A DNA stretch of 64,000 nt from Taxawa tesnikishii (nom. ined.) (taxonomy: Eukaryota > Ascomycota > Dothideomycetes > Dothideales): the NCBI GenBank assembly GCA_030247885.1, contig JAPDRO010000019.1:124001-188000 (forward strand). The letters run 5' to 3'. A program made the position numbers and the translations under genes. This document shows, piece after piece, positions 2,801 through 60,736 of the stretch (the first letter of the stretch is position 1; every line of letters begins with the position of its first letter). The notes below the pieces were generated by a model that ran no database searches, was not told the origin of the DNA, and saw only the letters and a list, made by a program, of their open reading frames with translations.

Positions 2801-5467
2801 TTACGAGGCGTGCTTCTTGGCCATCGTGTTGAGGGCGCTTCCGTTCTTGAACCACTCGATTTGGCCCTCGTTGAAGGTGTGGGAGAGCTCGATGTCAAAT
2901 GCCTCGCCGTCCTTGGGGTGTACCCGCATGGTCATTGGCTTACCAACGGCAAGCTGGGTGCACATGAGGTCGATCTTGGCGTCAGGTGGGATACGATCGT
3001 AGTCGGCTGGGTCGGAGAAGGTCAGAGGAAGCATACCCTGCTTCTTCAGGTTGGTCTCGTGCTACGTTTGGTATTAGTTGATGTGTCAAGTGAGATCAGG
3101 TCGTTAGAGCGCAGAACTTACGATACGGGCGAAAGAGCGGACGATGATGGCGAGACCACCAAGGTGTCTGGGCTCCAGAGCGGCGTGCTCACGGGAGCTT
3201 CCCTCACCGTAGTTCCAGTCACCGACGACGACCCACTTGATGCCCTTGGACTTGTAGTCACGGGCGGTGGCTGGGACGGCACCGACTTCACCGTTGGTGA
3301 TGTTCTTAACCTTGTTGGCCTCACCGTTGGCAGCGTTGACAGCACCAATCAACATGTTGTTAGAGATGTTGTCCAAGTGACCTCGGTACTTGAGCCATGG
3401 ACCGGCCACTACATCATTGTCAGCGGAATTCGTGTAAATAGCTACAATAGAATACATACTGGAGATGTGGTCAGTGGTGGTCTTGCCCTGGGTCTTGATC
3501 AGGATTGGCATATCGAGAGCGTCCTTGCCGTCCCAGGCCTGGAATGGCTCGAGAATCTGCAGACGATCGGAGCTTGGGGAAACAGCAACCTTGACGGAGG
3601 CGCGGTCCTCTGGTGGGGCCTGGTAGGTGTCCTCACCTGGGTCGAAGCCGGCCCTTGGGAGTGAGTCACCGCTTGGTGGCTCGAGCTTGAACTCCTTGCC
3701 GTCCTTGTCCTTCAGGGAGTCGGTCAGAGGGTTGAAGTTCAAAGAACCAGCAAGAGTCATGGCCACGACGAGATCTGGGGAAGCGACGAAGGCGTGGGTA
3801 GCAGGGTTGGCATCGTTACGGCCAGTGAAGTTACGGTTGTAGGAGGAGATGATAGAGTTAGGCTCGCCCTTCTTGACGTCCCTGCGATCCCACTGACCTG
3901 TAAGAACAGTTAGCAAAGACATTCATAGGAATAGGGAGGATCGTATATTTGCCTATGCAAGGTCCGCATGCGTTGGCCAGGACCATACCACCAAAGTCCT
4001 CGAAGGTCTTCAGTTGACCATCGCGGGCGATGGTGGCACGGATCTGCTCGGAACCTGGGGTGACGGTGAACTTGGCCTGGGCCTTGATGCCGTGGCCCAG
4101 AGCCTGCTCGGCGATGGAAGCACCGCGGGACATGTCCTCATAAGAGGAGTTGGTGCAAGAACCGATCAGACCAACCTTGAGCTCCTCAGGCCACTTGTTG
4201 TCGGCAACGGCCTGCTTGAACTTGCTGATCGGGGTGGCAAGATCGGGGTGAAAGGTCCGTTGATATGTGGCTCAAGCTCGTCAAGGTTGATCTCGATCAG
4301 CTGGTCGTACTCGGCGCCCTCATCCTCACGCAGCTCCTTGGCGTATTCGCGGGCGAAGTCACCAATGTGCTGACGCTTGGTGGCCTTCAGGTAGTCGTAC
4401 ATACGGTCGTTGAAGGGGAACATAGAGGTGGTAGCACCAATCTCAGCACCCATGTTACAGATGGTACCCATACCAGTGCAAGAGAGAGAGGTAACACCAG
4501 GTCCGTGGTACTCAATGATAGCACCAGTACCACCCTTGACGGTCAGGATACCGGCGACCTTCAGGATAATGTCTGTTGCTCGATTAGTGGCGGATTCGGA
4601 CTGTCGTGAGAAAGATCACTTACCCTTCGGTGCGGTCCAGCCAGACATCTTGCCAGTGAGACGGACACCGGTGACCTTGGGGGCCTTCAGCTCCCACGGC
4701 AAGTTGGCCATGACATCGACAGCATCGGCACCACCGACACCAATAGCAGCCATAGCAAGACCACCAGCGTTGGGGGTGTGAGAGTCGGTACCGATCATCA
4801 GACCACCAGGGAAAGCGTAGTTCTCCAGGACAATCTGGTGAATGATACCGGAACCGGGCTTCCAGAAACCAATGTTGTACTTGGCGGTGGCACTAGCCAG
4901 GAAATCATAAACTTCCTTGTTGATCTCGTTGGCACGAGCAAGATCCTTGTCACCTCCGACCTGGGCCTCGATCAAGTGGTCACAGTGGACGGTAGTAGGA
5001 GTAGCGACAGAGGGCATGCCAGCAGACATGAACTGCAGAATGGCCATCTGAGCGGTGGCATCCTGGCAAGCGACACGGTCGGGGCGGAGCTTCAGGTAGG
5101 ACTTGCCACGCTCAATCTCCTGTCCGTGAGGGTCGTCAAGGTGAGAGTACAGAACCTTCTCGGCGTATGTCAAAGGCCTGTTCAGGCGCTGGCGGACGAT
5201 GGAGAGGTTCTCGTGCATCTTGGCGTAGTTGATGTAGTGGCCCTTCTCCCAGTTGGTCATCTCGACCTTCTTGTTGAGAGCCGCATCGTTGACGGTGGCG
5301 AGGCCGCGACGGCCCAGCTATCGTGAGGCGTTAGAGAAGTTGTTGTTATTATCATCATCAGAGAGCTCGAAGCTCGAAGCTCGAAGCTCGAAGCTCGAAG
5401 CTCGGAACAGAGCAGGGTTTGGCTCGCTACGTACCACTTTCCGCGCTGCCGCCCGTGCAGACAGCAT
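2801..5467 (-). CDS. ACO1: Aconitate hydratase, mitochondrial (aconitase)
   Basis: A TCA-cycle enzyme (citrate to isocitrate) with a 4Fe-4S cluster, in the mitochondrial matrix. Six exons: 5467-5435, 5317-4624, 4572-3953, 3897-3460, 3408-3122, 3061-2801. The first exon gives an Arg/Ala-rich targeting peptide ([11 protein letters not shown]). Cluster ligands are visible in [10 protein letters not shown] and in [12 protein letters not shown]; the swivel domain has [12 protein letters not shown]. About 777 residues after correction, as expected. Intron 3952-3898 is GC-AG. Near 4245-4248 the frame slips: GPFTP runs out of frame, and one more C in a CCCC run would restore the expected [11 protein letters not shown]. 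For so conserved an enzyme I infer a sequence error. Intron 1 carries a 7-bp tandem repeat. Confidence 0.95.
5364..5405. repeat. (AGCTCGA)x5-6 tandem repeat in aconitase intron 1
   Basis: Six 7-bp units in a row, the last ending in G instead of A, inside the first intron of the aconitase gene. Each unit contains the palindrome AGCT or TCGA. The copy number is likely to be variable. Confidence 0.9.
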
Positions 5468-5858
5468 TGTGAGGAGTCAGTCAGAAACAAGTCAGAGTCG
5501 ACGCTGACTGGTACGCGGTGCCCTTGTTCTGTAAAAGGGAGGGTCGAGGCGATGGAATGGAGAGGGTTGAAGAAGACTGAAGGGCGGAGATGTCAAGGAC
5601 AGAAGCAGCTTGGAAGGAGGATAACAGCACCTCTTTCAAAAGAGCTTAGCAGCATGCGGGAAACGTCAGAAGACGCTCCCGAGGTAATCTGGGCCAATCA
5701 GGACAAACGCCATTACAGTTGCCGTAGTTTTCCTTTTCCCTCGATTGCCAAGTTGCAGAAGAGCCGGGACGTGCTGGGAGCGAACGCGCACGTGGAAGGC
5801 CGGGAGAGCCGGGAGAGCTGGAGGGTGCCCTATACTATTGCAAGCCGCCTATCGCTCG

Positions 5859-5893
<35 letters not shown>

Positions 5894-8369: not shown

Positions 8370-10207
8370 TCAGGTCCAGCGCAGCTCCTTCTTCGATCTC
8401 TCCACCTCAGCAGCAGCTTTCTGCTCCCTGTACCTCCTCCCCAACACCTCCATAACTTCCTTGTGACTCGCCTTTCCCATCTCCTTCTTTACGTTCGCAA
8501 AATTCTCCTTGACAAACGCCGCATACCCACACACGCCGTCTCCCTCTCCGGCCTTTTTCCTCGGCACCGGCTTGACTTGCACCAACCGCCCCCTACACAC
8601 GCCGCAAAGGTGCTTCTTGGGATCGATACTTTTACTGTGCCGTTTGTGCTCGTGACCACACATCTCTTCCACGCACTGCCAGATATATTTGTACTCAATC
8701 TGGTAACTGTGCTTGGTCGTCACCTCCACACCCCTACTTCCGAAGAGAGAAGTGCACTTCGCACCCCACGCCTTGAATGACTTGCCATGCGGCTGGTCTT
8801 TGATCCCGCTCACCATAAAATTGGCCAAGTGGCAGAATTCGTGCGCAATGACGTTCAACAGCCGTTCTTCATCGTCGATTACCTTTTCCGCCAGCTCGAT
8901 CGAGGCCGTGTGCTTGTACGTCGTCTGCACATCGCCGGATGAGTTGTGCGTGCGTGTTGTTTCGCGCTTCCAGTTCGCGCGTCCGGCGGTCGTGTTGAGC
9001 GTCTTGGACCAGATGATGCGCACGCCTCCTGTCCGAGCAGCCAACTCCGCGATCTTACCGTCTGTGACGGAGTGATCGAGCTCATCTAGAAACGAGGCGG
9101 CGAGTGCGTGTTTGCGGCTCTCGAAGCCCTTCTTGGCTTCTATCTCTGCTTTTGTTCGCTTGATCGGGCTCTGCAGCTTGCGCGGCGAGGAGATGGGTGT
9201 TGAAGAGTCGTCGTCGAGCATGAAGCGCGATTTCTTGGGCGAGAGAAGTGGCTTTTCTGGCGAGTATTGGTCGTTCCATTCGTTGACTTGGTGGACGCTC
9301 CAGAATGCGTCGATGCTAGGGCGGTGTGGTGGTGTCGGTATGCGAGATTTCTTCTTGGAAGGAGAGACGAGTCGGGATTTAGGAGGTGAAGTGGGAGGGG
9401 TGGTGTCGATGGCCGTTCTAGTTCTGTCGCCTTGGGCTTTTGTTGCGCAGTTGGTGGAGAGCTGTGAGATTGTGTCAGCAACGTCTCCAATCTTTACACA
9501 CATCTGGCTTTCGCGTACAACCGAATTGCCGTCAAAGAGTCGTTCTCTTTGTCTGACAAACTGGCAGGCTGAACGACAGACTTCAGAGCGAACTTTCCAG
9601 ACGGATCTGAGTCAACAGCATCCCTGTGTGAGGGTCCCTGCCGCGGATTGGTCTTCCTAGGCGATGGAAACAACTTTCGCGCAGTAGGCAATCCGAATTC
9701 TGAATCCTCTCTGTCCGATTCTTCATTGGATGAACCGCACCATATGCTTTCTTCGATGTCCTCCTCTTCCTCCACCTCGACCTCATCGCCCAGGAGTGCT
9801 GCATAGTCCACCGTCTTTCGCACACCACGTCGTGGCGTGGCCCTCGCTTTCGCATACGTCTGAAGCTTGGATGAGCGCAGTTCCTCCTGGTCCGGGTCTC
9901 GTTCAGTGTGAGCAGCTGGTAATTTGAAGACGGATTTAGACTTCAACGGACGTCCTGCTTTGACTGTGGTAGGCGGCCGCAGTTGGAGCGGCGCCAGCTT
10001 CTGGTCTGATACAGGGAGCGCATCTTTCTTTGCAGATGCACTCGTTGTCTTCTTGGTAGGTGAGAACCTGGTCTTCGGATTGGTAGTTTCGCTTGCTAAA
10101 GTTGGCTTTGCAAGTCTCGGTGGAAGCAATGTTCGGATGTGTTTGTTAATAATTTCCTCTAGATCTGGCAGGTCGTCCTCGCTGTCTGATACGTGTGTGC
10201 GCGCCAT
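8370..10207 (-). CDS. SprT-like metalloprotease with HMG box (GCNA/ACRC type)
   Basis: The ATG at 10207 opens an acidic, disordered N-terminal half (SDSEDDLPDLEEI, later acidic and Ser/Pro patches), followed by a SprT domain with zinc site HEFCH and a downstream zinc ribbon (CVEEMCGHEH...HLCGVCRGRL). It ends in an HMG-box-like helix region (YAAFVKENFANVKKEMGK). This order is that of GCNA/ACRC and of the S. pombe HMG-box/SprT protein, which act on DNA-protein crosslinks; activity here is inference. About 612 residues. Near 9500 the frame changes: either a short intron, or one missing base after KAR, which joins MCVKIGDVADTISQ smoothly. I prefer the missing base, given the pattern in this window. 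Confidence 0.85.
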
Positions 10208-10553: not shown

Positions 10554-11047
10554 TCAAGCAGCGCTCGCCAGTTCCAGGATGTGCTTGTTGATGAACCACT
10601 TGTTCAGCTCCTCCTTGCTCAGCACCTTCGCGCCCTGGACGTCGCGCACGCACTGTCCTTTTCCAGCACCGCAAAGACAGTCGAAAGGCCTGTCGAACTC
10701 CCACTCAGTGCTCGGATAAAAGAACGTAAGATCGTCACCCTCCTTCAAGTCCCTATCTCTCGCAACACGGACTTCCATTTTCTCGGCATCAATCTCGACG
10801 GATGGGGTGCATGAATGGTTCATATAGAGCAGAGCGCTGTTGAGCTCGATGTGGTCATTGGCCGAAGTCTGGACTGTGGACCAGCGCTTCTTTGGTGCGG
10901 GGTGGCCGTGGTAATTGGGCAAAAGAGCGAGCCGGCAGGGAGGGAGACCTTGGACACGATGGCATGGCCGGCTGGTCGCGTAGCATAGGCGACCAGGTCG
11001 GAGAGGTTGTTGGTCTCTAGGGAGTAGGCTGGCTCATCGGATGACAT
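10554..11047 (-). CDS. Small SET-domain protein
   Basis: A single exon of about 164 residues. The C-terminal half has the SET core YMNHSCTPSVEID and FFYPSTEW, followed by a post-SET motif FDCLCGAGKGQC. The N-terminal half (LSDLVAYATRPAGHAIVSKV, LPAGSLFCPITTAT) matches the start of small fungal SET proteins. SET domains methylate protein lysines; this one is too short to predict a substrate. The two halves lie in different frames: at 10899-10902 a CCCC run should have one more C to link PITTATP to APKKRWSTVQTS. I treat that as a sequence error. Confidence 0.75.
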
Positions 11048-13232: not shown

Positions 13233-13649
13233 ACTGATATTGCACGCTCTTGTTTTTTATTCTTGGCTGGAACTGGGTGGAACTCGAATATCGAGGCGAA
13301 GCTGGGCTTTTAATATCCGCACGGCAAGGCTGCCTAACATTCATGCCTGCAGCTTGGCGCAGACTGCGGTCAAGTACCTCCCCTGTTACGAGTTTCAGTG
13401 GCCAGTGTGATTGGTTAGAGACACACCGGAATACCTGCGCGTCTGACAGATTGCCTTGCACAGCCTCACAGCCCGCGGGGTACAATACCAGCTAACAGAA
13501 ACTGCAACCGTATGGGGATGGCAACCCTTTCCTGCTGGCAGTTTGCCAGCTCTGATCTTCGCTGGAAAGAAACTGGTAATCTCTACCAGTAAGAGCGTAC
13601 GCACACATCTTCACATGTCATCACTAGCTATTCGAACGTCAAACCCATA
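13233..13649. promoter_or_regulatory. Divergent promoter of DUF4419 and HET genes
   Basis: 417 bp between divergent starts. No further gene seen. Confidence 0.5.
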
Positions 13650-17285: not shown

Positions 17286-20200
17286 TCAATACGTCAACAT
17301 CTTCCCGCCCTTCTTCCCAAAGTCCACTCCCGCCTTCGTATAGGCGCAATACCTATCCTTGATAGCCACGACTTCATATGTGCCCTCCTCGCTCGCTCTA
17401 ATCGTCATACTGTACTCCTCGCTGACCTCACTCCTCATCTCGAGCACCTGGCTCTTGTGCCCTTTGCGAGCATTCGTGCTGCGTGTCCACGTGAACTCAA
17501 AGGGCGGCGTGCCTCCGAAGTCGAACGTGATTTCTACCTCACCGCCCTCGTGGATGTCCACATATGACTCACGGCCCTTGGATACACGCACAGATGGCAT
17601 GCCATGAATGCGCCGCAAGATGTTGTAGTTGGCGCGACATTGCGATCCGGAGTCGGTAAGACCGGTGATAGTAAAGGTGCCAGGCTTCTCAGCCAGACGC
17701 CGGAAGGGAGTGCTGCTAGAGACCGCCTTGCGAGAGATGCCGTTGAAATCGTAGTAGACATTGAAAGGCGCCTGACCGGAGAGCGCATACGAGATGCGGT
17801 CGCCGACGCAAAAGTCGTCTTGGTGCTCGAGCGGCGCGATAGTTGGCGCATCGTGGACAGAGATCTGAACGCGTGGAGAGGATGAGTCAAGAACACGCCC
17901 GCATCCGCGGCTGTCTTGCACTTTACGAATGGAAACGGCGCTGTTCCCGAGATGGAGTGATTTGTGCGGGATCCGCAGCTGGTGGTTAGTTGATGCAATG
18001 TGCGAGACGCTGATGATTTCTGGTCGCGCGGTGCCGTGATGCTTGATTTCGAAGTCCACGCTGAACGGAGGTTGGCCTGTGAGAGTAATGGGGATGACTT
18101 CTTCGCCGGCAGATTCCACGGAGCAGTAGCTGTATGTCTTGCCCGGGTTGGTGAAGCGTGCGGTAGGACGTGGATTGACGCGCTGTTGAAGGATGAGGGG
18201 CGAGAATTGTCGGACATCGTGGTCGTAATTGTAATCTCCAAGCTCGGTAAACTTGTATTCGACAACACCGGGCTGGGTGGTATCCAGGCGGACCGAGGAC
18301 GACCCCAAGGCTGCGTTGAGCGTTTTGACACGCATTGCATTCGAGCCCTTGTCTGGCTTGATGCGTTCCTCGTATTTGACTTCGAACGGGGGAACCTGAT
18401 GGAGTCAGTATTGAGGAGCAAGATATCGTAAGCAATGCTTGACTTACCACTGATGTGGAGATCAACAGAATCCTCCTCGCCCTCACAGACCTCGTGCTTG
18501 ATGTACTTCTTGCCAACTTGCTCGGCATACGAGCCTTCCGCGATCCGCATTTGAGGCCTGGTCACCCACTTCACTTCGAACTTGTTGGTGCTCTCATCAG
18601 GAGCACCCGGACAGACGGCGTCGCTGACCGACATGATTTCGTAGGTACCTTCGTCCTGCACTTCGATGCCGTCGTTGTTGCGCGACATGGTAGCCTGAGT
18701 TTCATGGCCTTTGTGCCGGTATGTAATCGTCCAGGGTGCATCGCCACTGAGTCTGACCGGCAATCGCACCTTCTTGTCTTCCAATGTCTTGATCGAACGA
18801 CCGCCTTCAACCTGGCCGAAGGAAGCCTTTGGTCTTTGATGACGGACGTGGATCTTGGCATCATCCTTCAGGAACTCCTTGCAGCCCATCCGATCGGTGA
18901 CACTAGCCAAAGCCAGCGTGTAGTCGCCGCCCTTCCTAAGAACGTCTGTACAGATATCCGTCTCCTCCTTATCAATATCGCGCATTTCGTGCCGCTTACG
19001 ATCGTTGCCGCGCACAACTTCGTATTCCAGACTGAATGGTCCCTCGCCGCGGAACCGGACGGTGTAACATACTTGCTCATCGATGCACACCTGTTTTGGA
19101 GACGGGTGGACGATGTGCGCCGAGGCTGATGGTTTGACGTCTTGCTCGACGACAAGACCTTCGCCATGCAAGGCGTGACCTTTGTAAACCGCGTCGCTGA
19201 TCTCCGTGAACTCGTAGGTGTAATGACCTGCTCTCTCTGGTGCAAGTTCAATTTGACCCCTGAGCCCTTCTATAGTCTTCATGGCGATCTTAGAATCTCC
19301 CCTGCCATGGTCCACCCGAGTCACCTTGTACTGCACGTTGAAAGGTGGCGTTCCTGTCAAATGCAGATCGACACGCAATCCAACGGCCTTCTTAGCACAC
19401 TTGTCAAAGATTTCTTCCTGATCAATACGCAGGCTGGGCTCTGGTGGGTTTTGCAAAAGGCAAGACGCAGGCTCGTATACTTCTCCAGAGCAGAACTCTG
19501 TTTTCACCCTGGTAAGTGTGTACAGACCAGGGTGTTGGACAGTTGGGTTCGAATGCGCGTTCTTGATTACGATCTGTCTTCGCAGAGCTGAATCGCTGTG
19601 ATCGCCGTTGGGTAGAAGCTTGTCCTCGGGGGTGAACAAATACTCCACTTCATATGGCATGTCAAGGAAGCCACCTCTTCCTGTGGAAGTCTTGACTACA
19701 GGAATACCTGCGCTCATACCTTTTGCAACCTTGAGAGGATGCTGTGGATCACAGCCATTCAACTGTACTACCGGTCTTTCGTGGACGGTAATGACCTGGT
19801 GCAGATGTGATGCTTTGGCCCTGGTCCTATCCTGGTTGTCATGCTCGCGTTGGGTGTAAGAAACTGCGTTACCGAAGGCGTCCGTAACTTCTTCCAAGGA
19901 GAAGGCCCACTTCCCACTCGTTCCCAGGCTTTCACCAGTGGCACCGTAACAGTTTGCGCGCGAGCCCAAGAGATGTCCACATTGCCGCGCAGCGTCAAAG
20001 CGTCTGAGGTTTGGTGTGAAAGGGGCGACACAAAATCCTCCGGCTGAATGCTTTGAAAATGGGCTTCATGTTCGATCTGATTGACGACCTTCCGGTACTT
20101 GAGTCTCAGTGGTGGAGTTCCGGTCACTTTCAGCTCGAGATTGGAGAGATCACCCTTGCAACGATGTGCGTCTGTAGGTTCGACCATAGCTTGTGGGCAT

Positions 20201-21179
20201 TGAACGATTAACGTATCCGATACCCGGCGCCTCTGAACCTCGAGCTTTGACTCATCAATGACCTTCTGGAGAACGTACATGCCCGTCTTCTTAACTGGGA
20301 ATCTTAACATCAAAGGTTGATTAGGGGCATGATGCGGGAAGCCCTTGCGGCTTCTTTTGTCATCTTCCGGATCTGCGACGCAGTGATATGGGTGGTTTCG
20401 TTCTGCATAGTATCCAAGTCAATGCGGAGCAGATCGATGCTGATTGGTGTCGTTTGATTGATTTGAATAGGGAGGTGAACTTGTGGTCTTGACGAGTCGA
20501 GGCAATAGTGCTCACGGCCCGGGTTCAGGATAGCGGATCTGCGACGTATGTAAGCAGTTGTTCGTTACAAAAACTGAAATGTCATATACCCTTCCGGAAG
20601 AATGTGGACCACCGTTCTACCCAGGATCAGGGAAGCATTGTGAACAACGTCTGAGTGTTTGACGTGACGCTCAGAAATGGCGAGTTCACGGTCATAGAAA
20701 ATCTTCGAGATAGCAACCAGACCAGCGCCAAGCGGTATGGGTATCCTAAACATCAATATGCCGTCCAATATAGCGTGCGCTATAAACAGGACGGTCATGG
20801 TCATGGAGGACCACTCCAGCCATGGTATCCTCAGCTCCGGCAGCCCAAAGAGAAATATGCCGTCGAACGCTACCCATTTCATGAAGAGCCATAACGACTC
20901 AGTCTCCTCCTCTTGCAAATAATGAAAGTCGTAGAGTCGCCATGCCAGAAGTGCGACGTAGAAGGCGACAACGTACAGCCTCTGTTGAGGTGCGTCTATG
21001 GTCTCGAATGGTATTAACGGTCCGCTGTCACCATCGCTGTTCTGTTGCTGCTGCTTGAGCGCATTGACATCCGGTAGCGGTGACCTCAGCTGGGACGCAC
21101 TTCCTGACGCTCCGTCTCTCCGGCCAGTGTTCTGCGGTGTCGCAGGGTACGCGGATCGAAGACGAGGTGTGCCGTTCAT
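17286..21179 (-). CDS. POM152: Nucleoporin POM152, transmembrane ring component
   Basis: POM152 anchors the luminal ring of the nuclear pore complex. The start at 21179 (MNGTPRLRSAYPATPQ) is the family's usual N-terminus. Transmembrane segments follow at about residues 65-85 and 95-175. The long luminal part is a series of Ig-like repeats, each with a GxxPF motif (TGTPPFNVQYK, RGEGPFSLEYE, TGQPPFSVDFE, SGQAPFNVYYD, GGTPPFEFTWT). Exons: 21179-20590, 20538-18448, 18395-17286; about 1,264 residues, normal for the family. Frame breaks: one missing base at 20324-20327 (a CCCC run before the PNQPLMLRFPVKKTG stretch), one near 19934-19937 (before GESLGTSGKWAF), and an unresolved exon 2/3 junction near 18448/18395. 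Confidence 0.93.
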
Positions 21180-21949
21180 CGCATCATGCGCACGGGATTC
21201 TCCAGCGAGGTGGCTGTCAGTCCAGTGAGCGTGTTGAAAGGCTTGTGTGGGTAGTTCTTCAAGTGCCAGTGAGAGTCCTGAATTGGCTGGGTCCGAATTG
21301 TTGGTGATAGGTTCAAGTCGTGTAGTTTTGTTTGCACTGTTCTGTTCTGCTTTCCTCCAGACGCGAAGCACGCGGAGCTTCGAAACATCGACGGGGGTTC
21401 TGGCGGGCCGAGCCGACGCGTTGACGCTAGCGTTCACGCTCGGTGGCCGAGTTCAAATCTCCACGTGAGGTAGCGATGATGCTGCTGCTCCTGCTGCTAT
21501 AACCAGGAGTATTTCATGTGGAGATCTTATTTGTTGGCACGTCAAGTACCGAACATTGACGCGATCGCCTACAATTAGTGAATGAACGAAAGTGTTGTCA
21601 GTATGAATTTCACTCCGTGGCCACTTTGACACGCGTCTGACGCGCCCAAGATTCACGTCGGTTCTATGCGGTATTCATGGTCGATACTCTGCGGATTCAC
21701 AATGCTAGCAAGCTGTTGCAATCATGGCCTCGATCTTGTCGTCCTCTGCCGTAGGCTCTAAGGACTCTCCACTCTATATTGTTCGGTTTTGCTATGCGCG
21801 TTTGGTTTGCTGATCGCTCTCCTTTCAGCCTGTTTCACAAATACCTCCCTCCCCATTTATCAACGTCTGCAACAGGCTCCTTCCTTGCCATCCCATCATC
21901 TCAACTCCATTATCCGTTAAAGATAACATATCAATAATCCAATACAAAA
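21180..21949. promoter_or_regulatory. Divergent promoter of POM152 and UCH gene
   Basis: 770 bp between divergent starts. The POM152 frame stays open upstream of 21179 to about 21437 without another ATG, so I read it as 5' leader. Nothing else is supported. Confidence 0.5.
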
Positions 21950-23717
21950 ATGCCGCCAAAATCAAAGAGAAGGCGCCTGAACAACGAAACCGTCAGTTCT
22001 ACGAATGGCGAACTCGCACGGCGAGCGCCGGATCGTGCTACATGGCCTGGATGGTGCGAGGTCGAGTCAGAACCGGTGAGTGGGAAGAACTTCAATCTTG
22101 ACCCTTCGGCTTCGCAGTTTGTGGCATCACTGGTCTCACCAAGAAATATCTAATGTGCTTCGATATACGCTACCGTGGCCAGAGTGGTCACACGTATGAA
22201 TAGCAACATGCGGCATGGCCATCCTTGCGATAGTTTGCGCTTTTTCCAACACAGACAGGCATGCTGACGCGAAGCAAAGGCGTTCTTCAACGTCATGCTC
22301 GACGAAATGGGTGTCCGAGGGATCAAAATCCAGGAAGTACTGGGTCTAGACGATGAGCTCCTCGCAATTCTACCCAAACCAGTCCACGCATTCATATTCC
22401 TATTCCGATACCGCGAAGTCGACAAGGACAAACAAGAGACCAGCTGTCCGCCGGACGTGTGGTTTGCGAACCAGATGCCCGAATTTGCGTGCGCTACCGT
22501 CGCACTTTTGAACATCGTCAACAACATCCCGGACCTCAATCTCGGTCTCCACCTGCAGTCTTTCAAAGGGTTCACCAAGGATCTTGACCCCATTTCCAGA
22601 GGCGATGCAATCACGAATTTCGATTTCGTTAGGAGGATACACAACTCCTTCGCCAGAGAAATCGACATGTACAACGTGGATCTACTCCTCAAGTCCAAGC
22701 ATGAAAGGGCACAGAAAGACAAGAAGAACGCTGCAGCAAGAGAAGCTCGTGCTGCCAGCGCAGCAGAAAAGACCGCAGCCAAGGTTATCTCAGAATCGGC
22801 GCAAGACCTAACGACAGCGCCGGCAGCAGCTCCTCCTCCAAGGAGATCCGCCCGAACGCCCAAGCCGCGCGTCAAACTTAGCGACATCCCCTCGATAACG
22901 AAATTTCCGAAGATGACGAGGGTTTCCACTTCATCGCCTACATGCCCATCAAGGGTTCAGTCTGGAAACTAGATGGTCTGGACTCATTTCCACAGAATCT
23001 GGGTTCCCTCTCCAACGGTGACTGGCTCAGCATCGCCAAACCCGCGCTTGAGGCCCGCATGGCAATGTACTCAGAGGGGCAAATTGAGTTCAGCCTGATG
23101 GCCGTGGTGTCAGATCCCCTCATCGAAGCGCGGCGCGAGTTTGCCGAAAACGTGGCCGCGATCCGGGCCACGGAGGGAAAGCTGACGGAATGTGATTCAG
23201 CATGGAGAGATCTCATCAGCAAAGAGGATGGAGTGGAAGAGGCACTTGTCACGGGCATGGACATCGAGCACGGTCTCAGCGACGCTGATATTGCCGGCGC
23301 TGCTGTCCCTCCAGATGTCCAGAAAGAGCTGCAAACCCAGGCGAGTCGCAGAAAAGAAGACGTGGACGTCACGCAGGATCTACTACAATTACGGCAGCGC
23401 CTCGTGCGCATACAGGCAGGATGCAGAGTTACGGTGAGGGACCGCATGGATGCGGATCGCGCTGATGCTGACAAGGCGATGCATCGGAGGTGGGATTATG
23501 GGAAGTTCGTTGCGGAGTGGTTGCGGGCGTTGCATGATAACGAGGCGTTGAAGCCGCTGGTTGAGAGCGTGAAGGCAGGCGGAGGAGAATAGGAACCCCC
23601 ATAGACGGAAAGATTTTGCAGCTTCAAGCCCAGTACAACGCTCTGCAGCAGCGCGATGTCGAGCTTAAGCTGAAGATGCGCAGACTTCAACGTGTCAAGG
23701 GTGACACTGGTGCATAA
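21950..23717 (+). CDS. Ubiquitin C-terminal hydrolase, UCH37/UCHL5-like
   Basis: A cysteine protease of the UCH (C12) family that removes ubiquitin, often bound to the proteasome. Exon 1 is 21950-22075 and exon 2 starts at 22280 (204-bp intron, AAG acceptor). WCEVESEP joins AFFNVMLDEMGV. The catalytic Cys lies in MPEFACATVALLN and the catalytic His in EGFHFIAYMP. A Lys/Ala-rich insert with RRSART separates them. At 22888-22891 a CCCC run needs one more C to keep the His in frame. The first-frame stop is at 23592, but a further one-base loss near 23580 would continue into a coiled-coil tail (GTPIDGKILQLQAQYNAL...MRRLQRV) ending at 23717, giving 521 residues. Confidence 0.88.
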
Positions 23718-24041: not shown

Positions 24042-24976
24042 TTACCTCCGCGACAGAATTCCTCCAAACCTCCTCAATCCAATGGCGTAAACAACCGTAC
24101 CAAAGATTAATCCCCCAGGTGTCCTGCATGTGCGGTCCTTGAATCCTGAGAGTCCAGATAGTATCCATCGATGGCCGCATATCCAACAGTGATGGCCCAC
24201 AGCGGGATATTGATCGGGATGAACATCAACTGCATCGGCGCTGTAGGAAAGAAGCACGTTGCCACAGCTGCAAGACCCATGACTGCACCGCTTGCGCCCA
24301 GAGCACCGCCATGGTACTGTGAATTGAGCCTCGGAGGTCCGCCTTGTTGTGCAACCTTCGCCTTCTGCCGCACCACGAACCCATAACTGCCCGCTACGCC
24401 CGCGCCAACCGCAATGCCCAGAACGCCCACACCAGTAAGACCTGGAACCCAACCCAGCATGCTGCAAAAGGTATTCATGGCGAACATGTTGAAGACAAAA
24501 TGCCCTAATTGCTGATGCGTGAAGGCGGAAGTCAGGACCGTCCAGTAGCGACCACTGTCCCAGGCAGAGGCGGAGATTATTGTGTTGTCGCGCAAGCGGT
24601 ATAATAGTCGGGAATTGCGTGTTGCGTAGGCATACTGCCAGGCGCCGAAGACGAGAGAGTTCACGCCGAGGATGAGGTAGAAGGCGTGCTGAGCGGAGAA
24701 CGAGGAGCTGGCGGAAGATCGACCGTAGTAGCGACGGGAGAAGACGGGATTGAAGGGAACGTATGTTGATGAACCGAGGGGGTAGGGGAGGTCGCTTCTC
24801 GGGCGTAGAGCCGAAGTTGATAGAGTGGCTTTCGACGTAGGCTTCTTGGTACTGTAAGCGTGTGAAGAGAAGAAGTTGAGCCTTGGTACCTGGTCCATCG
24901 TCTTGATCGGTCGGATTGGTGACAGACGATGGACACCGGTAATGGACCTGGCGCTGCGTAGGTAGTTGGGCATCAT
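24042..24976 (-). CDS. Rhomboid-family intramembrane serine protease
   Basis: First ATG at 24976 (MMPNYLRSARS), about 311 residues. The N-terminal 90 residues are basic and Ser-rich, like a mitochondrial presequence. Active-site elements are visible: HFVFNMFA, the catalytic serine in GALGASGAVMG, and the catalytic histidine in AHAGHLG, with at least six hydrophobic segments. Mitochondrial localisation (Pcp1/PARL-like role in cleaving inner-membrane proteins) is inference. At 24112-24116 a G5 run ends the frame right after AHAGHLG; one more G continues as GLIFGTVVYAIGLRRFGG to the stop at 24042, which restores the last transmembrane helix. Confidence 0.82.
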
Positions 24977-30247: not shown

Positions 30248-31238
30248 TCAAGCCCCCGGCGGCCTCCCCAGCTCATTCTTGTATAACCCCGCCTGCTCCA
30301 CTTCTCTACACCACAGCTTCCACGGCCGACTCGCATGTCCTTGATTCGCCGTCCAAGCATCCTTACACTCTCTGTCATTCAGATACTTGATCCCTTCTAT
30401 CTGAATCTTACTGCCCTCTCCTCCTTGCGGCCGACTTTCTCGCCCACCAGACCTGTGTTATATCCGCCCTGCAGTAATAGCGCGGTGGTCTGCACGCGGG
30501 CATTGGTGCAGGTGTAGACGGCACGGTAGACGGCTTCCTCGATGGATGCGCCGACACAGGTGAACCCGTGTCCGCGCATCAGAACGGTTGGGTGAGCGGG
30601 GAACGAGGGAGGAATCGAAGGGGTCGAGGAGAGATAATTTTTGATCACGTTGGAGGTTTTGGAGATGAGCGTGGAGGGGTGAAAACCGGCTGCGAGGGCA
30701 GCGCCGAGGTGTTGGTTTGTTACTAGTAGGTCGTGCCGATTGTCGGACGCGGTGTAGTGGAGCGCGATGTCGAAGATGGGCACTTGGGAGCCTGTGAGAT
30801 GTGGTCAGGGTTGCATGTTTGGTTGGTGGTCGAAGACGATACGATTGAGCTGTACCTACCCATTACACCGCCCATATGGAAAACAGGCCTTAGCGGTACG
30901 CTGCTGATACTGAATGGCACCACTGCTTCGGAATGGCTGTGCACCACGCTCCTGACATCCTTGTACTTCTTATATAGCTCAGAGTGAATGACCCTTTCCG
31001 CGTAACCCCTCGGCACGTCTTCGCGAACCGGACTCGCATCCTCGACGTGGTACTCGACTAGATCAGACAGCGAAGACACAAGCGCAGGTGCGAGGCTCCC
31101 GGACATGAAGAAGGTGTCCGGGTTGTTTGGGTTTCGCACCGAGACATGGCCGTAGGCATCGACCACGTTCTGATGGTGGATGATGTGGTTGGCAGTGATG
31201 AGGCTGCTGAAGATGGATTCGGGCGGCGAGTCTGGCAT
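30248..31238 (-). CDS. Class II aldolase/adducin-domain protein
   Basis: Start ATG at 31238 (MPDSPPESIF). Two exons, 31238-30860 and 30791-30248 (68-bp intron joining GGVMG to SQVPIFD). Family elements: NVVDAYGHVSVRNP, the zinc-binding HSHSEAVVPF, and MRGHGFTCVG with its metal-binding histidine. Fungal members of this zinc-dependent fold are little studied; related enzymes handle sugar phosphates, and the substrate is unknown here. Near 30421-30430 one base is missing: without it the protein stops early in an Arg-rich tail, with it the usual C-terminus follows (EGIKYLNDRECKDAW, then RPWKLWCREVE) to the stop at 30248, total 307 residues. Confidence 0.85.
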
Positions 31239-36564: not shown

Positions 36565-37564
36565 TCAGATGTACTTCTTGTCCGGATCGACCTTGTCCAA
36601 GAGCTCCATGGTCTTCTCATACCTGCAAGGCTGTCAGCGTTGCTCCAGGGATACAAGCGTAAGGTTCCTTACATGGTGAAGACAATGCCACCGCTCAAGA
36701 TCAGCCTGCCAAGTCTGGGAACTGCGCCTGACCAGAAAGTGAGAACACCCTCTTCTCTGAAGATACGAGCGGCACAGTTAAAGCTGTTCTTGTACTCTTG
36801 CTTTGCCTCAATAGACTGCATCCGCGTTTTGATGGTGTCAAGTGGCATGGTGGCATATCTGGGCAAGTCAACACGACACGTCCTGGGGACTCCAGCGTAT
36901 CGCACTTACACTGTGATGATACCCGCCATGCCTCCAATGCCGAATGTGCTGATAGCTCCCAGTTTCTCCCCTGGAGCAACATAACTTTGCGCCAGCTGCC
37001 TCAACGAGGTGTAACTGCTGAAGCGCACGGCGGAATTGGCAGCCTGGCGTGCTGTTGTCGGAACAAATCCCTGAAAGAAACCTCGTATGCCCTTCTCTTG
37101 CGCAATTAGCCTGCTTCCGTGCAAGAACCCCCGTACCTCGGATTTGGCGATTTGCGGTCGTCAATCAGTTGTGTCTTGATACTTTCGAAAGGCGTAACGG
37201 CCAACAAGCTCTCCGTGACTCCCGCTCCGAATCCAGCAATGACTGTGGCCGGCCCACTGATTGAACCGTCCTCGTTCGACAGCATATTTTTGTAGGCGTC
37301 GTATGCGACGAACCGTATCCCCGCCTTGAGTGAGTTTCCAATGATCAGAGTCGTGCATCCAGCGTACCACTCCGGACCGAACCTGGGCCATGGTAGTTTC
37401 TTTCCCTCTGCAAGCCTGCGGTTGAGTTGTGTCCGAGTCTTCGCGAACTCCGCAGGATATGTGATGGCGATTTCCACTGCGCCGGCTGTCGAACCTGCGA
37501 TAATGGAGCGCAGAGCGGAGGGCTTCTGCTTCTTCTGACCTTCGGGCGCGGCGGCGGCACTCAT
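36565..37564 (-). CDS. CTP1: Mitochondrial citrate (tricarboxylate) carrier
   Basis: A member of the mitochondrial carrier family that exchanges citrate/isocitrate/malate across the inner membrane. The start at 37564 (MSAAAAPEGQKKQK) fits the family; the frame stays open upstream, but that is leader. Exons: 37564-36910, 36858-36673, 36622-36565; 299 residues. Three carrier repeats are visible by their PxExxKT/PxDxxKT motifs: YPAEFAKTRTQ, TPFESIKTQL, MPLDTIKTRMQ, and by GSTAGAVEI-type glycine helices. RGFFQGFVPTTARQAAN is typical of CTP1. At 37128-37132 a G5 run should be G6 to join NPRYGG to FLHGSRLIAQEKG. Confidence 0.93.
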
Positions 37565-37841
37565 CTTGCCTTGGCTCTTCCTCTTGAAACTTGGACAATT
37601 GTGGTTCCAAGGGTGTGCCTGCACCTTAGGGAGGGAATGGTCAGCGGATTGAACTGGGGTGGAATGGAATTGTTTCTTGGGGCCTCGGAAGAGTGACTTC
37701 ACATGCCGGCGAGAAGCTTGGACCACCATGTATGAATGGAAAGAGCAGATCATTCCATCGCATTGTTGCTTCAGGATACGACAACTTTTTCCATCCACTT
37801 GCATATCCCTCCCTGTACCACTGACAGCTTCTACATTCAAG
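37565..37841. promoter_or_regulatory. 277-bp shared promoter of CTP1 and MAM33
   Basis: Two genes for mitochondrial proteins start divergently 277 bp apart. The stretch must hold both core promoters. No motif was assigned. Confidence 0.6.
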
Positions 37842-41941: not shown

Positions 41942-44900
41942 CTAAGGCAGATAGGCACCTCCAGCCACGACGAGATTCATCTGGGTGAACCGGACCTTGT
42001 ACACCGGGCTCTTCTTGGTCGGAAATGCTGAGATTTGGTCAAGGGAAACGGTGACCTCCTTTCCTTTGCCCTTCTTAGCACCAGCAGCAACACCCGTCCC
42101 GTCAATCTTGGCGCCAGCACCGCCTTCAGCAACCACCTTGCCATCAGCCTTGCCGTCAGTCTTGCCATCCGAGGATGCGACGTCCCACACGCGTACAGTG
42201 CCGTCAGCGCCGCCGGAGACGAGCACGCTGCTCTCGACGCTCCAATCAAGACTCCAGACGCCACCTCTCCCGTGTCCCCTCAACCTCTTATTCAATCGTC
42301 CCGTCGCGAGATCCCAGATCAAGATCTCCCCTCTGTCATCCGCAGAGGCGACGAGCTTGCCGCTGGGTGCACAGCTCAGAGCCGTAATATTGCCGACGTG
42401 GCCTGTGAAGAGTCTGACTGCATTCCCTCGCTGGATGTCCCACATGCGCACGCTGCGGTCGCCGTTGCCCGAAGCTGTGAAGACGTACGCCGCATTGGGG
42501 TGCCAGGCGCAGCACTCGACGTCGCTGTCGTGGCCGACAAAGAGGCGCAGAGGAGAGATGGTCGCAGTGGACCAGAGACGGGCGGTGCGGTCGGCAGAGG
42601 CGGAGAGGAAGTAGTGTCCCAGGGGCGAGAAGCGGACGTCCCAGACAGGGGAGGAGTGGGAGCGATAGGCGACAAGGTTAGTGAAGGTATCGAGGGACCA
42701 GAGTCGGATTGTACAGTCTGCGGAACTGGAGAGGAGGTAGCGGGGATGAGATGAGGAAGATGTGTTTGTTGTGCCGTTGGTGCCATTTGTCTGGGTGGTG
42801 GCGAGTGGCAGAGCGACAGAGGGGAGAAGGACAAGGCGTAAACAGGACCCGAGTGGCCTATGAGACGGCGTGAGGATGACGGTTGCTGGTTTGGTGGGTC
42901 AAGAGGAGACGTGAGAGGTCTGTTGTCTAGAGACCAGACTCGGATGTAGGACTCAGAAGTACCCACGGCCACGAGGGCGTTATCACCGGAAAATTCGATG
43001 CAGTTAAGACTGAAATTGTGTTAGCAGACGAAAAGTTGAAAGACCTTTCTAAGAGTACGCCTACCTGTCGAAAGTGTTGTGAAACGTAAACATCGTTACA
43101 CTGACGCCGGGACCAACGCCGCCGGTGCGACCTTCAATTCTGAAGCGGTCACGGTTCTCTTTGACCCTCTGCACCTCCATTGCGACATCTCTAGCGAGCG
43201 ACGGCGGAAAGGGTATCTGATCGCGTGAGGGTACGTCGTCGGTTGGTTCCCGCTTGATACGCTGCTCGAACTCCTCGACCAGTGTGTTACGTCCAGGTGC
43301 AGGTGGATGCGCAGCGTCGTGTTCTTGGAGCTCAGCTTTCACGTCTTCCATGAGCTCGGGTTCCATCGGCATCGGGCCGAGTGCGAGCTTAGCCAAAACT
43401 GGAGGCGCGTTTCGATCGGTATTTGCGGAACCGGGGTTATGACCTGGTATGCCTTCGTCTTCAGGCGGTACGTCTTGATCACTTGTCTTGTTGAGAAGTT
43501 TCGAGAGACTACGCTCCGCCCCTACAGCTACTCTGTCGACGGTAACGATGTGCAAGGAGTTGTTGATCAGGGCGGTGATGACAGAACCACCCCCACGCTC
43601 GTTGGCCTCCAAGAACTGGATAAGCGTTGTGAATGCCATGTTACTGAGAGTGACACGGTATTTATTATTGCGGTAGATCTGCGCAATGTTGTTCGTCTGT
43701 AGATGCTCTGGTAGGCGTAAGGTGGAGAGCGCACGCAAGTCGTCTTCATGCTCCTTTTGGAATGGCTCCTTGTAGGTATCGAGGAAACGTTTTGAGTCGT
43801 TGGGGTAGAAGTCGGCGACGAGTGTGAGGAGACTGTATACGAACACCGGCCAGAGGAGTCTGCTCAATTCCGGCTTGTAAATGTCGAGTACATTGTCGAT
43901 CCACCTGGAGATCAGGTCGTATCCCCTGAAATAAGCGTCGCCGCCTGCATCCTCGGCACGACCGTGAATCGGCCGACCTTCAGCATCTTGATGTGCGGAT
44001 TCTTTCCTCAACATAGCTTCTGTTCGAGAGTAGCCCTTCTTAGCAAGATATTCGAGCACCTGTTGAAGGAGATAGTTAGCCTTTGCCCTTTCGTCGGTGG
44101 GTAGTGAAGCGCGTGCGTCTCGTCTGTCTTGCGCGATGTTGCCAACGCGATATGAAGGTGGCTGTGTCTTGCCCAAAGGACCAACAACCGGCTTTGGATA
44201 TCCAGCTGTGGTGGCAGGGCCCCATGTGGTGACAGAATAGGTTTGCATTGGGATCGGGCGCGATGTTGCTATGCTTCGGCTTTGACCAGATGCTGCGTGA
44301 CGCGGTGTTTGCTGGCCAGACCCTCTTTGACGCGGCATCATGGTGGCTGGATTCTGGCCTCTCACAGGAGCTTCACTGGCTGAGGAAGCGTATCGCAATG
44401 CCGATGTGGAGCTGAGCGCCGAAGCTGGAGGCTGCGAGCTTGAAGTGGGAGGCCGTGAGCTTGCTACCGAAGGCTGTGACCGTCGCTGTGAGGGGATGTT
44501 TGCTGTGTTCGTGGGGTCGTTGGATATGGAAGTGTCGGTGTATATGCGGGCCGAGTGCCAGCAAGAGGAGATCGAGCCGTGTCGAACACACCGGGCCCGG
44601 TAGCCGCGTATGGGTTTGGAGAAAAACTGGTCCCCAAGTTGATCGGCGGTGCAGCTAGTCGTGACGACATACTTTGCGACGCTGGGAATGCGCCTGCGTT
44701 GTTATGAACGCTTATCGATGCCCAAGACACACTGTTGGCAGGGATGGTGTTTGATGTGGTCGATGGGCCGTAGGCATCGGAGGCTGGCGATAGGCGCTGT
44801 AGTGGCTGTGGACCTTCCCGACCTTGCTGCTTGCCGGACGGTTTCTGGTCTTGCGACGCTTGTCCTGGTTGTGCTTGTCGCATGCTGGGGGTGGGTGTAT

Positions 44901-45511
44901 TGGGCGACGCTGGCGACAGGAACGGTGTAGCCAGAGATCTTGCAGGTTGCGCAATGAGCCTCGAGGCAGGCGAATCGATGCACCTCTTGACAGGTGTGAC
45001 GGTGTTGTCCCTCGCCATGGCTGAGAGCACGCGCGAAGATACGTTCGCGTGTGGCAGGTTGCCGAAGGCCGACAAAGTGAATGTGAAAGACGAACGTTGT
45101 TACGTGTTTGAACCGAGGTTCACCACGGGTAGATGTTGGTGAATGAACGAAGGAAGGAAAGGAGGAAGGTCAGGGAAGACCTTCTACACGCGCTCCCACA
45201 ATTGGCAGTCGTGTCCTCAGTCGGGGATCAGGCCGAGGGTTTATGTACAGGTGAAGGGCGCGGCGCAATCACTCCATGTTCGCTTTTACGGCGGGATGAG
45301 TTCAAAGTGAAAAACTACCTACAATCTGGTTCAGATTCTGCTGCTGTTGCTGCTGTTGTTGTGGTGGTTGCTGCTGCTGCTGCTGTCCTCCCTGCGGTGG
45401 TGGCGGGCCCTGCTGCGGAGGTGGGTGGTGGGGAGGAGGAGGGTGAGGCATCTGGCCAACACCCGGCCCAACGCTGGCCGTCCGCTGCGGCGGCGGACCT
45501 TGGCCTGACAT
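41942..45511 (-). CDS. TAF5: TFIID/SAGA subunit TAF5 (LisH, NTD2, WD40)
   Basis: TAF5 scaffolds both TFIID and SAGA. Exon 1 (45511-45323) codes a Pro/Gln-rich leader ending NLNQI; exon 2 (44059-43065) starts with V-LEYLAKKGYSRTEAML, the LisH motif, followed by the NTD2 domain (YDLISRWIDNVLDIYKPEL, FVYSLLTLVADFYPND). Exon 3 (43009-41942) holds six or seven WD40 repeats (ALVAVGTSESYIRVWSL, LLSSSADCTIRLW, FTASGDRSVRMWD, LVSGGADGTVRVWD). About 750 residues. The first intron is 1,263 bp, very long for this genome, and carries its own open frame. At 42821-42824 a CCCC run lacks one C (between ALSFSP and SVALPLATTQTNG). Confidence 0.93.
44060..45018 (-). other. Open frame inside TAF5 intron 1: possible alternative N-terminus
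   Basis: An ATG at 45018 (MARDNTVTPVKRC) opens a Ser/Pro/Gln/Thr-rich disordered frame that runs about 320 codons and continues straight into the LisH exon (ERAKANYLLQQ then VLEYLAKKGYS). One missing base at 44492-44495 (CCCC for CCCCC) must be restored to keep the frame. A second transcript starting inside the intron would then make a TAF5 with a different N-terminus. Alternatively the region is only a long intron with chance openness. Composition and length favour coding; splicing data are needed to decide. Confidence 0.45.
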
Positions 45512-54108: not shown

Positions 54109-54935
54109 GCTTCAGGGAATAAGACTGAGAAATCCATGGCAGCGTAAACAGGCATTCTTGGCGGCCTACCGCTTGAACCTTGCAGGACTCATCAGCTTCC
54201 AGATGGAGAAACGTGCAGCGGCAGGGCACAACGAGGCCAGAGCAGCTATGGGACATATCACGGCATTGATGTCGCGCCAAACTACAGCTGTGCAGCGGGG
54301 TAAGGATTGTCTGCACCTCTGCGGTCGCATATGCCAGGAAAACTGGCCCTGATGACTTTGTTTGTTTGGAGTTTAGTACCAGACGTGTGCACAGCTGGAC
54401 CTCACGCACAACGGGTCCGTTCTCAGCGGTCCTAGCAGAAGACAGGCTCTGTGCACAAGACCTGTGAGCTTGGCTCTGTCGCCCAGGGGTAAATTTCCAT
54501 GAATTCAATTCCTTTGCTCACAAACGTCGCCTAATGATATACATGACAACTGAGTGATGTAGAGCGCACAGCCACTCTGTTCGTTGCTGGTCAGATGTGC
54601 CAAATCAAGGCCGCTGGGTGGTCCATCCGTCAATGAATGACCACTGCCCAGGCCCAGGCACACCCACCGATGATCAAAAGCGCCGTTTCATGTTTGCTCT
54701 TCCCACGGCAAAACAAGAGTGCTTGGCTGCGGGCGAAGCTTCCTTGGCCGGATTCTTGTTTTGCTACGTCATTCTGTTGGTTCGGGATGTCCCTCATGCA
54801 AGAACCCAGAAAGAAACCCTCGAGCAATATAAGGCAGTGTATCTCTACGATCCGGCATTCAGTCCTCAATTCAAACCCCATCCCCGATACACCAAAAACA
54901 TATCTCCTCCAAACCCTATAACAACAACAATCATC
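54109..54935. other. Intergenic
   Basis: 827 bp with no supported gene. The last 100 bp, AT-richer and rich in CA and ACAACA, look like a promoter and leader. Confidence 0.45.
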
Positions 54936-55407
54936 ATGTCTGACTACCAGGAGACTACGACCAGAACGCCGCTCGCGATGCGGGCTACGCTGCGGGAGCA
55001 GTTGGTAAGCTTTCGTTCCGTTTGCTTGGCACTCGCCTTGACTCTCTTGGCCCGTTGCTGACTTTCAGTCTCACAGAGGGCGACTACAACCGCGTCGACA
55101 ATGCCGTCAACAGCGAAGAGCAAAACATCGGCAACGACTTCCGCCGCGACGAGCAAGCCGTCGAGAACGCACCAGAAAACGCTGCCCGTGACGTTGAGCA
55201 AGGCTTCGACAACACCGTCCAGGGCGTTGAGAACGTGCCCTCTGATATTGGAGACGGCATCAGGGCGCTGCTAGCTGGATTGGCGACAAGTTCGGTGGTG
55301 CTGAGAACGAGGCAAGGAATGCTGAGAACGACGTGAGCCAGTTCGACCAGGGCGTGGATAATGCCTACAACCAGGGCGAGCAGCAGGGAGAGCAGCAGGG
55401 CTGGTAG
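54936..55407 (+). CDS. Small acidic hydrophilic protein (LEA/stress-like)
   Basis: Exons 54936-55004 and 55077-55407. With two missing bases restored (near 54951-54955 and at 55263-55265) the protein is 133 residues: MSDYQ, DYDQNAARDAGYAAG, then repeated Asn/Glu/Asp-rich segments (NRVDNAVNSEEQNIGND, QAVENAPENAARDVEQG, VQGVENVPSDIGDG), an internal SWIGDKFGGAENEARNAEN, and a Gln/Gly-rich end. No hydrophobic core or cysteine. Such composition is typical of fungal desiccation and stress hydrophilins, but I know no named family. Confidence 0.65.
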
Positions 55408-55489
55408 TGGACTGCGGTTCCCTGTGACTGGACGAGGCGCTCTGATGAGTACGGGTTGAACGATTGATGATATGTATCCCTATGATATG

Positions 55490-59380: not shown

Positions 59381-60736
59381 ATGGGACGGGAGGAGGCGCT
59401 GGCCGAGAAGGTCGGCGAATACAACCAGTTCGATCAGTCGTCGCAAGAGTTGTCTTTCTTCCAACGGAATTTCTACCGGCCCAGCGATCATGACCGGGAA
59501 GGCGCGATCCAGCACCGCTTCTCTCTTCTCTCCCGCGGGGCTCTCATCTGCGCCGGCGGCTTCTGCATCATCATGCTCGCCGTCCTAGCCACCCTGTTGG
59601 GCGTCTTCCTCGACCGACATCACAAGCAGGTCGAGTATATGCGACGTATGCCCGTACGGCAAGCCCTCGTTGCAAACTTCCCCGACCCGACCATCCTGCA
59701 GCACAACGGGACATGGTACGCCTTTGCGACGAACAATGCAGCAGGCATCCTAGAGCAGCCGACCAACTCTTCATCCTACGAATACGGAACCAGCAACGTG
59801 CAAGTTGCAACCAGCACAGACTTCGTCAACTGGACCCTGCTCAGCTCCTCCTACGACCCGCTCCCACGCACCGGCGAGTGGGTGCAACAAGGCCTCACAG
59901 AGCGACCACCGCCAATCCCGCGTGCCAACGTCTGGGCACCTGCCGTCCTCCAGCGTCCCTCGGATGGGAAGTTCATCATGTACTACTCCGCCTCAGCCAG
60001 CAACGCAACCCGCTCGCACTGTCTCGGAGGTGCCATCTCCAATACTTCCTCGCCCTTGGGCCCCTACGAACCGCTCCCCACCCCTCTCGCCTGCCCAATC
60101 CCCGCCGGCGGCGCCATCGACCCGGCCACCTTCGTCGATACAGACGACAGCATCTACGTCCTCTGGAAAGTCGACGGCAACAACGTCGGGCACGGGGGTT
60201 CATGCGGAAACATGGTGGACCCACAAGTCCCCACACCGATCCGTCTGCAACGCATGCGCTCCGACGGCGTCACCCCGGACGGCGAACCCATCACTATTCT
60301 TGACAGGACCAAGGACGACGGCCCGCTCGTCGAGGCCCCGGAACTGGTGAAAAGCAAGGAGGGCGTCTACTTCCTCTTCTTCAGCTCCGGGTGCACGCGC
60401 GCGCCCACGTACGACTTGAAATACGCCTGGAGCTATAACATTTCCGGTCCCTACACGCGCGCCGCACTGCCCCTATTGTCCACCGGGGACTGGGGGCTTC
60501 TGGCCCCGGGTAGCGTGGGTGTTGCGAGGGCCGAGGAAGATGTGAATGGGACGGAGGTGTGGAGGATGGCGTTCCATGCACGCGTGACGACGAATTTTGG
60601 CCGCGTGAGGAGTATGTGGACGGCTGGGCTCACGTTCAATGGGACGGCGGCTTTTTGCAGAAGGTTTATACTGAGGAGGCGACGGGGTGATGTCCTAGCT
60701 TGGGAAGGTGCCCGAAGAGCACTGATGAGGTTATGA
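59381..60736 (+). CDS. Membrane-anchored glycoside hydrolase family 43-like protein
   Basis: ATG at 59381 (MGREEALAEKVGEYN). A cytosolic N-terminus of about 50 residues is followed by one membrane anchor (ALICAGGFCIIMLAVLATLL), then a five-blade propeller: the catalytic Asp in NFPDPTILQHNGTWYAFAT, IPRANVWAPAVLQ, the pKa-modulating Asp in GAIDPATFVDTDDSIY, and the catalytic Glu in LVEAPELVKSKEGVYFLF. GH43 enzymes cleave arabinan and xylan side chains; the type II anchor would hold this one at the cell surface or in the secretory pathway. The annotated end is Arg-rich (60736); one missing base near 60646 would give GGFLQKVYTEEATG and a stop at 60690 (436 residues), which looks more natural. Confidence 0.85.
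   Translation: MGREEALAEKVGEYNQFDQSSQELSFFQRNFYRPSDHDREGAIQHRFSLLSRGALICAGGFCIIMLAVLATLLGVFLDRHHKQVEYMRRMPVRQALVANFPDPTILQHNGTWYAFATNNAAGILEQPTNSSSYEYGTSNVQVATSTDFVNWTLLSSSYDPLPRTGEWVQQGLTERPPPIPRANVWAPAVLQRPSDGKFIMYYSASASNATRSHCLGGAISNTSSPLGPYEPLPTPLACPIPAGGAIDPATFVDTDDSIYVLWKVDGNNVGHGGSCGNMVDPQVPTPIRLQRMRSDGVTPDGEPITILDRTKDDGPLVEAPELVKSKEGVYFLFFSSGCTRAPTYDLKYAWSYNISGPYTRAALPLLSTGDWGLLAPGSVGVARAEEDVNGTEVWRMAFHARVTTNFGRVRSMWTAGLTFNGTAAFCRRFILRRRRGDVLAWEGARRALMRL

Follow-up and report, generated by a model that had tools for sequence, protein, structure and literature searches.

How does one stretch of a fungal genome come to carry so many conserved genes whose reading frames are restored by adding a single base? 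The stretch is a window of 64,000 nucleotides (nt), G000:C11:124001-188000, from an assembly of 29.37 Mb in 34 contigs, and its fungal character is seen in Zn2Cys6, Fungal_trans, POM152 and HET genes and in short introns. A preliminary description had listed such one-base losses in more than ten genes, had placed eight of them at G/C runs of 4 or 5 (4245-4248, 10899-10902, 20324-20327, 22888-22891, 24112-24116, 37128-37132, 42821-42824 and 44492-44495), and had attributed them to undercalled homopolymers in an unpolished long-read assembly. Our results support long-read assembly error as the cause: losses outnumber gains on three contigs, no nonsense codons are called at equal prior, long homopolymers are in short supply, and one-base junctions fall within conserved genes, that for DNA polymerase delta among them.

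Frame changes were scored with a three-periodic order-4 Markov hidden Markov model (HMM) that has intron states and equal priors for the loss and the gain of one base. The training set was the window and one 100-kb stretch from each of contigs C23 and C7 (264 kb in total, out of the 29.37 Mb); donor and acceptor weights were general fungal values, untrained on the sampled DNA. Priors of 2e-5, 2e-4 and 1e-3 were used, and counts are quoted at 2e-4 unless another is named. In the window the HMM called 10 losses and no gains (p = 0.002), each loss inside a gene named in the preliminary description; the C23 stretch gave 11 losses and 3 gains and the C7 stretch 9 losses and 1 gain, so that one-base indels occur on all three sampled contigs and not at one locus alone. 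Over the 264 kb, the ratio of losses to gains was 21:3, 30:4 and 47:12 at the three priors in ascending order (two-sided binomial p = 2.8e-4, 6e-6 and 5e-6), and the 30 losses fall on both strands, as had been claimed (17 minus, 13 plus). Among events planted away from the calls, the HMM recovered 46 of 66 losses and 50 of 60 gains with the correct sign and gave a single loss the wrong one, which means that a bias of detection does not produce the excess of losses. The 30 calls in 143,617 nt of HMM-coding sequence amount to one break per 4.8 kb before correction, or about one per 3.3 kb at a sensitivity of 0.70. Because the HMM misses genes with unusual codon use, its call counts are lower bounds and its "noncoding" DNA includes some genes; its placement of losses is imprecise. 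One open reading frame (ORF) of 377 amino acids with a HET domain (13593-14723, plus strand; Pfam E = 9e-36) lies inside a 4-kb stretch that the HMM scored as noncoding, which suggests unusual codon use in this gene. Rfam and tRNA scans across the window gave no matches.

The genes concerned, in window coordinates, are these:
3861..4615, minus strand: mitochondrial-type aconitase; one-base-short frame change at about 4242-4248, HMM loss at 4246.
8373..10207, minus strand: SprT-like gene; HMM loss at about 9539, with Pfam SprT-like and zinc ribbon matches on the downstream side only and none upstream.
10557..11047, minus strand: SET-domain gene; change at about 10899-10923, HMM loss at 10923 at all three priors, Pfam SET match downstream only.
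17289..21446, minus strand: POM152 nucleoporin; changes at about 19971 (HMM loss) and 20324-20349 (Pfam).
22295..23714, plus strand: UCH37-like ubiquitin hydrolase; changes at about 22888-22892 and 23585, both HMM losses.
24042..24976, minus strand: rhomboid protease; candidate change at about 24112-24116, the Pfam match (2-128 of 143) stopping one residue before the frame ends.
30400..31238, minus strand: class II aldolase; more probably an intron at 30792-30859 than a frame error.
34888..35492, minus strand: Zn2Cys6 regulator; HMM loss at about 35009, Zn_clus upstream, Fungal_trans in later exons.
36672..37729, minus strand: mitochondrial carrier (CTP1-like); change at about 37128-37152, Mito_carr matches in two frames, continuous by eye.
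41945..45020, minus strand: TAF5; change within 42749-42822, HMM loss at 42703, some 50 nt outside that interval.
54633..55404, plus strand: hydrophilic protein; HMM loss at about 55261 at 2e-4, a weak one at about 54954 at 1e-3 only.
59381..60687, plus strand: GH43 gene; HMM loss at about 60549, GH43 match (10-232 of 288) in the upstream piece, which was the piece scanned.

Homologous residues fix the junctions in aconitase and TAF5. In aconitase, the residues corresponding to 328 and 329 of 1aco_A are encoded in different frames by codons that share base 4244, and both alignments are ungapped there. In TAF5, residues 443 and 463 of 9ynu_D correspond to codons in two frames with only 68 nt between them, too few for an intron on top of the 19 intervening residues; at the second TAF5 site (44492) the HMM returned an 89-nt intron at 2e-4 and a loss at 1e-3. 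The two losses proposed for POM152 are each borne out by one kind of evidence: that at 19971 by the HMM, and the other by the first Pom152 Ig domain, which is split across two frames (1-66 and 64-109). The Pfam edges place this latter change at about 20340-20349, at least 13 nt upstream of the run at 20324, and here the HMM preferred introns at 2e-4. For the CTP1-like carrier it gave a loss at 1e-3; at 2e-4 it gave a 77-nt intron whose excision would remove Pfam-matched residues. Pfam and PDB matches, about 210 nt apart, flank the first site in the UCH37-like gene, and no GTRNG donor is present in 22680-22930. To judge from the alignment ends, segments that adjoin each other in the PDB homologues are separated in this same gene, at 22680-22906 (plus strand), by some 70 additional residues with a high content of Ala, Arg and Pro.

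All eight G/C runs are present with the positions and lengths given in the preliminary description, and homology scored by a tool flanks a frame change at five of them (4245, 20324, 22888, 37128 and 42821) and not at 24112, 10899 or 44492. An HMM loss lies within 150 nt of four of the eight at 2e-4 and of six at 1e-3, a proximity that by itself credits no run, given that 18 of the 132 coding G/C runs of at least 4 in the window are within 150 nt of some call. At the SET, SprT, Zn2Cys6 and GH43 sites, the second POM152 site in reading order (19971), the second UCH site and 55261, the evidence is the HMM call together with a family match on one side or none; the piece directly downstream of 35009 in the Zn2Cys6 regulator has no Pfam match, nor have the two scanned pieces of the hydrophilic protein. 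Of the two losses proposed for this last protein, 55261 is called at 2e-4, and the first appears only at 1e-3 and is inseparable from an intron. The rhomboid tail can be read in another frame by eye only; taken alone it gave no Pfam match, and no HMM loss falls within 150 nt at any of the three priors. The proposed loss in the class II aldolase is not supported: a 68-nt GT..AG stretch separates the two parts of its Aldolase_II match (3-116 and 147-182), the HMM calls no frame change at 2e-4 or 1e-3, and an intron accounts for the gene better than a frame error does.

A second line of evidence comes from the homopolymers themselves, whose expected numbers were taken from order-3 Markov sequences. 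Runs of at least 6 are scarce in each of the three contigs; in the 264 kb, 6 such G/C runs were observed against 29.3 expected, and 30 A/T runs against 58.5. The shortage of G/C runs extends to HMM-noncoding DNA, where coding selection should be weak (3 observed, 17.2 expected), and runs of 6 are depleted in coding and noncoding DNA alike, with noncoding A/T runs of at least 7 only mildly affected (11 against 13.5). At length 6, the observed/expected ratios are 0.42 for A/T and 0.21 for G/C here, whereas E. coli has 0.91 and 0.46; for runs of at least 7 they are 0.82 and 0.19 here, compared with 0.82 and 1.71. E. coli is the only control genome, and its G/C counts are low (3 against 6.5 at length 6 and 3 against 1.8 at 7 or more); runs of 6 and long G/C runs contrast clearly with it, and A/T runs of at least 7 do not. 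An excess of runs of length 4 was dropped as evidence, E. coli G/C runs showing the same excess. Elsewhere in the sample, a single run of 14 G occurs in G000:C23:1000001-1100000; it is the only G/C run longer than 6 in the 264 kb.

Losses are also found near homopolymers more often than chance would place them there: 13 of the 30 have a run of at least 4 within 12 nt, against a null of 13.8% among 12,000 coding positions (p = 8e-5). These 13 runs comprise 10 of G/C and 3 of A/T, a non-significant bias (10/13, p = 0.10), and over all losses the longest run within 12 nt is 2-5 bases. The homopolymer link is real but partial.

Outside the window, one loss is in the gene for the catalytic subunit of DNA polymerase delta on a control contig. 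Its frame changes between the residues corresponding to 574 and 575 of 3iay_A, whose codons share one base beside an A5 run, and the HMM calls a loss there. A cell without DNA polymerase delta is unable to divide. Matches to the DNA polymerase B family occur at three further places in the genome. Where Pfam found one family on either side of a control loss, it was the DNA polymerase B exonuclease, CRT10 or Arb2-like family; the first and last of these domains are split between frames in like manner at two other control calls. At another control call, close to the end of L025:8413-9105 (plus strand), FAR1 and Tc5-type transposase DNA-binding domains share one ORF, perhaps a transposon-derived gene.

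Several observations count against reading these changes as errors, and the sign ratio is the first to be qualified by them. With a model of its own, 100 kb of E. coli K-12 at 2e-4 gave 18 calls, 14 losses and 4 gains; since this error-free sequence also favours losses, the ratio by itself is not proof of an artefact. Comparison with the annotation puts a gene end no more than about 50 nt from each of the 18 E. coli calls, which therefore seem to be joins between genes that adjoin or overlap (no call was made for prfB, whose true programmed shift is near the gene start). The fungal calls differ in this respect: the abandoned frame stays open for 0-8 codons at the 14 E. coli losses, compared with a median of 25.5 (range 1-108) at the 30 fungal ones, and it exceeds 10 codons at 26 of 30 fungal losses but at none of the 14 in E. 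coli. Gene joins, a candidate cause of the fungal losses, are ruled out by these long-open frames, and among fungal calls with more than 10 open codons losses outnumber gains 26:2.

The other adverse points are more scattered. At 1e-3 the window yields 16 losses and 2 gains, so that the uniform sign claimed in the preliminary description holds at 2e-4 (10:0) and is not absolute. Four gain calls persist in the 264 kb, three of them within 1.2 kb, and Pfam found nothing in the five ORFs scanned at gain calls (one of them cut, and one flanking ORF left out). Seventeen of the 30 losses have no run of at least 4 within 12 nt, though the HMM places losses imprecisely; G/C runs of 6 are below expectation in E. 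coli as well (3 against 6.5). Among the 12 complete ORF pairs scanned with Pfam at the 20 control losses (one half pair was also scanned, one loss was covered by a PDB search and six were unscanned), the same family was matched on both sides in three, on one side in five and on neither in four. Aconitase-family places elsewhere in the genome, several of them without stops, mean that aconitase need not be indispensable. Pfam matches elsewhere also contain in-frame stops: one TGA and one TAA at aconitase-family places, and one TAA, one TGA and two TAA at DNA polymerase B places. To these must be added the direction of the bias, taken up in the comparison below.

Two of these observations have details of their own. 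The clustered gains lie at L011:658-2035, in the C23 control stretch, among ORFs without a Pfam match, and likely mark a fast-evolving or wrongly modelled gene. The stop-bearing matches are at G000:C9:652686-653906, C29:633298-633450 and C10:342480-343691, and their stops could lie in introns read as coding sequence or stem from further errors.

Of the biological explanations, true pseudogenisation in a decaying genome would account directly for ORFs that are interrupted in the given sequence, and it should yield nonsense codons alongside frameshifts. With stop read-through allowed, the HMM called no nonsense codons in the 264 kb at priors of 2e-5 and 2e-4 and two at 1e-3, having detected 41 of 60 planted ones; at equal prior, the mark of decay is absent. 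Protein conservation, moreover, runs up to and past the junctions in aconitase and DNA polymerase delta, and the gene for the latter is itself affected (a second copy is formally possible, given the three other DNA polymerase B places). We consider decay highly improbable. Unrecognised introns, which can imitate frame changes, are the best fit for the class II aldolase and may hold for 44492 and for the first site in the hydrophilic protein (54936 in the preliminary description); the HMM also chose them at 20324 and 37128 at 2e-4. They find no space between homologous residues at aconitase, TAF5 or DNA polymerase delta, and although an intron path was available to the HMM throughout, it still returned 30 losses to 4 gains; from missed introns one would expect both signs. 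As an account of the whole set, introns are very unlikely.

Programmed ribosomal -1 frameshifting or transcriptional slippage, repairing the genes at expression, would fit the uniform sign of the losses, as a single mechanism requires, and the involvement of conserved basic genes. No in-frame X XXY YYZ heptamer lies near any of the 30 sites, which agrees with the earlier judgement that slippage is the less likely cause; against a null of 0.8% this is numerically weak, but the sites share no common motif. Frameshift sites in Euplotes are tied to stop codons, and those here are not, the abandoned frame remaining open for a median of 25.5 codons (1-108). Runs of only 2-5 bases near the losses argue against slippage, and recoding of either kind would leave the shortage of noncoding homopolymers unexplained; we give it hardly any credence. 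A genome truly short of single bases, about one per 3-5 kb of coding sequence, even in a gene as basic as that for DNA polymerase delta, and read by an efficient, motif-free -1 recoding or by RNA editing, seems to us the most far-fetched of these possibilities.

The frame changes are thus almost certainly residual sequencing or assembly errors of a contiguous long-read fungal assembly. During base-calling and consensus, homopolymers and certain other short contexts would have lost one base each, so that on both strands of the three sampled contigs a frame is broken roughly every 3 to 5 kb of coding sequence; the living organism would have intact genes. The source was presumably nanopore-type reads without accurate short-read polishing. 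We infer both platform and polishing state, because the sign of an indel excess varies between pipelines; "unpolished" in particular cannot be demonstrated from sequence alone, because a long-read-only polished assembly can retain many such errors, according to the passages of PMC7500977 drawn on here. The feature is an artefact rather than a real biological one and is of low biological interest. With coding sequence interrupted roughly every 3 to 5 kb, however, gene models, tallies of pseudogenes and apparent gene losses drawn from this assembly cannot be relied on, and other findings in this genome that depend on a broken frame are suspect until compared with reads.

Errors of this kind have been described before. 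In the relevant passages of the Homopolish paper (PMC8011154), systematic nanopore errors are mainly homopolymer indels that polishers often leave in place, and for one bacterial isolate deletion counts were raised by four polishers. Those indels shift reading frames, as ours do, with the difference that the Homopolish indels were benchmarked against references and ours are judged from the assembly itself. The closest fungal parallel is the set of nanopore-only assemblies of Drechmeria coniospora, as portrayed in the parts of PMC7500977 used here: inspection suggested that most errors were in homopolymers, altering frames, and long-read polishing never raised the proportion of correct test genes above 82%. 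Polishing there added more insertions than deletions, unlike the dominance of losses that we find (30:4). Like those of D. coniospora, ours is a contiguous fungal assembly, presumably from long reads, with frame errors in conserved genes.

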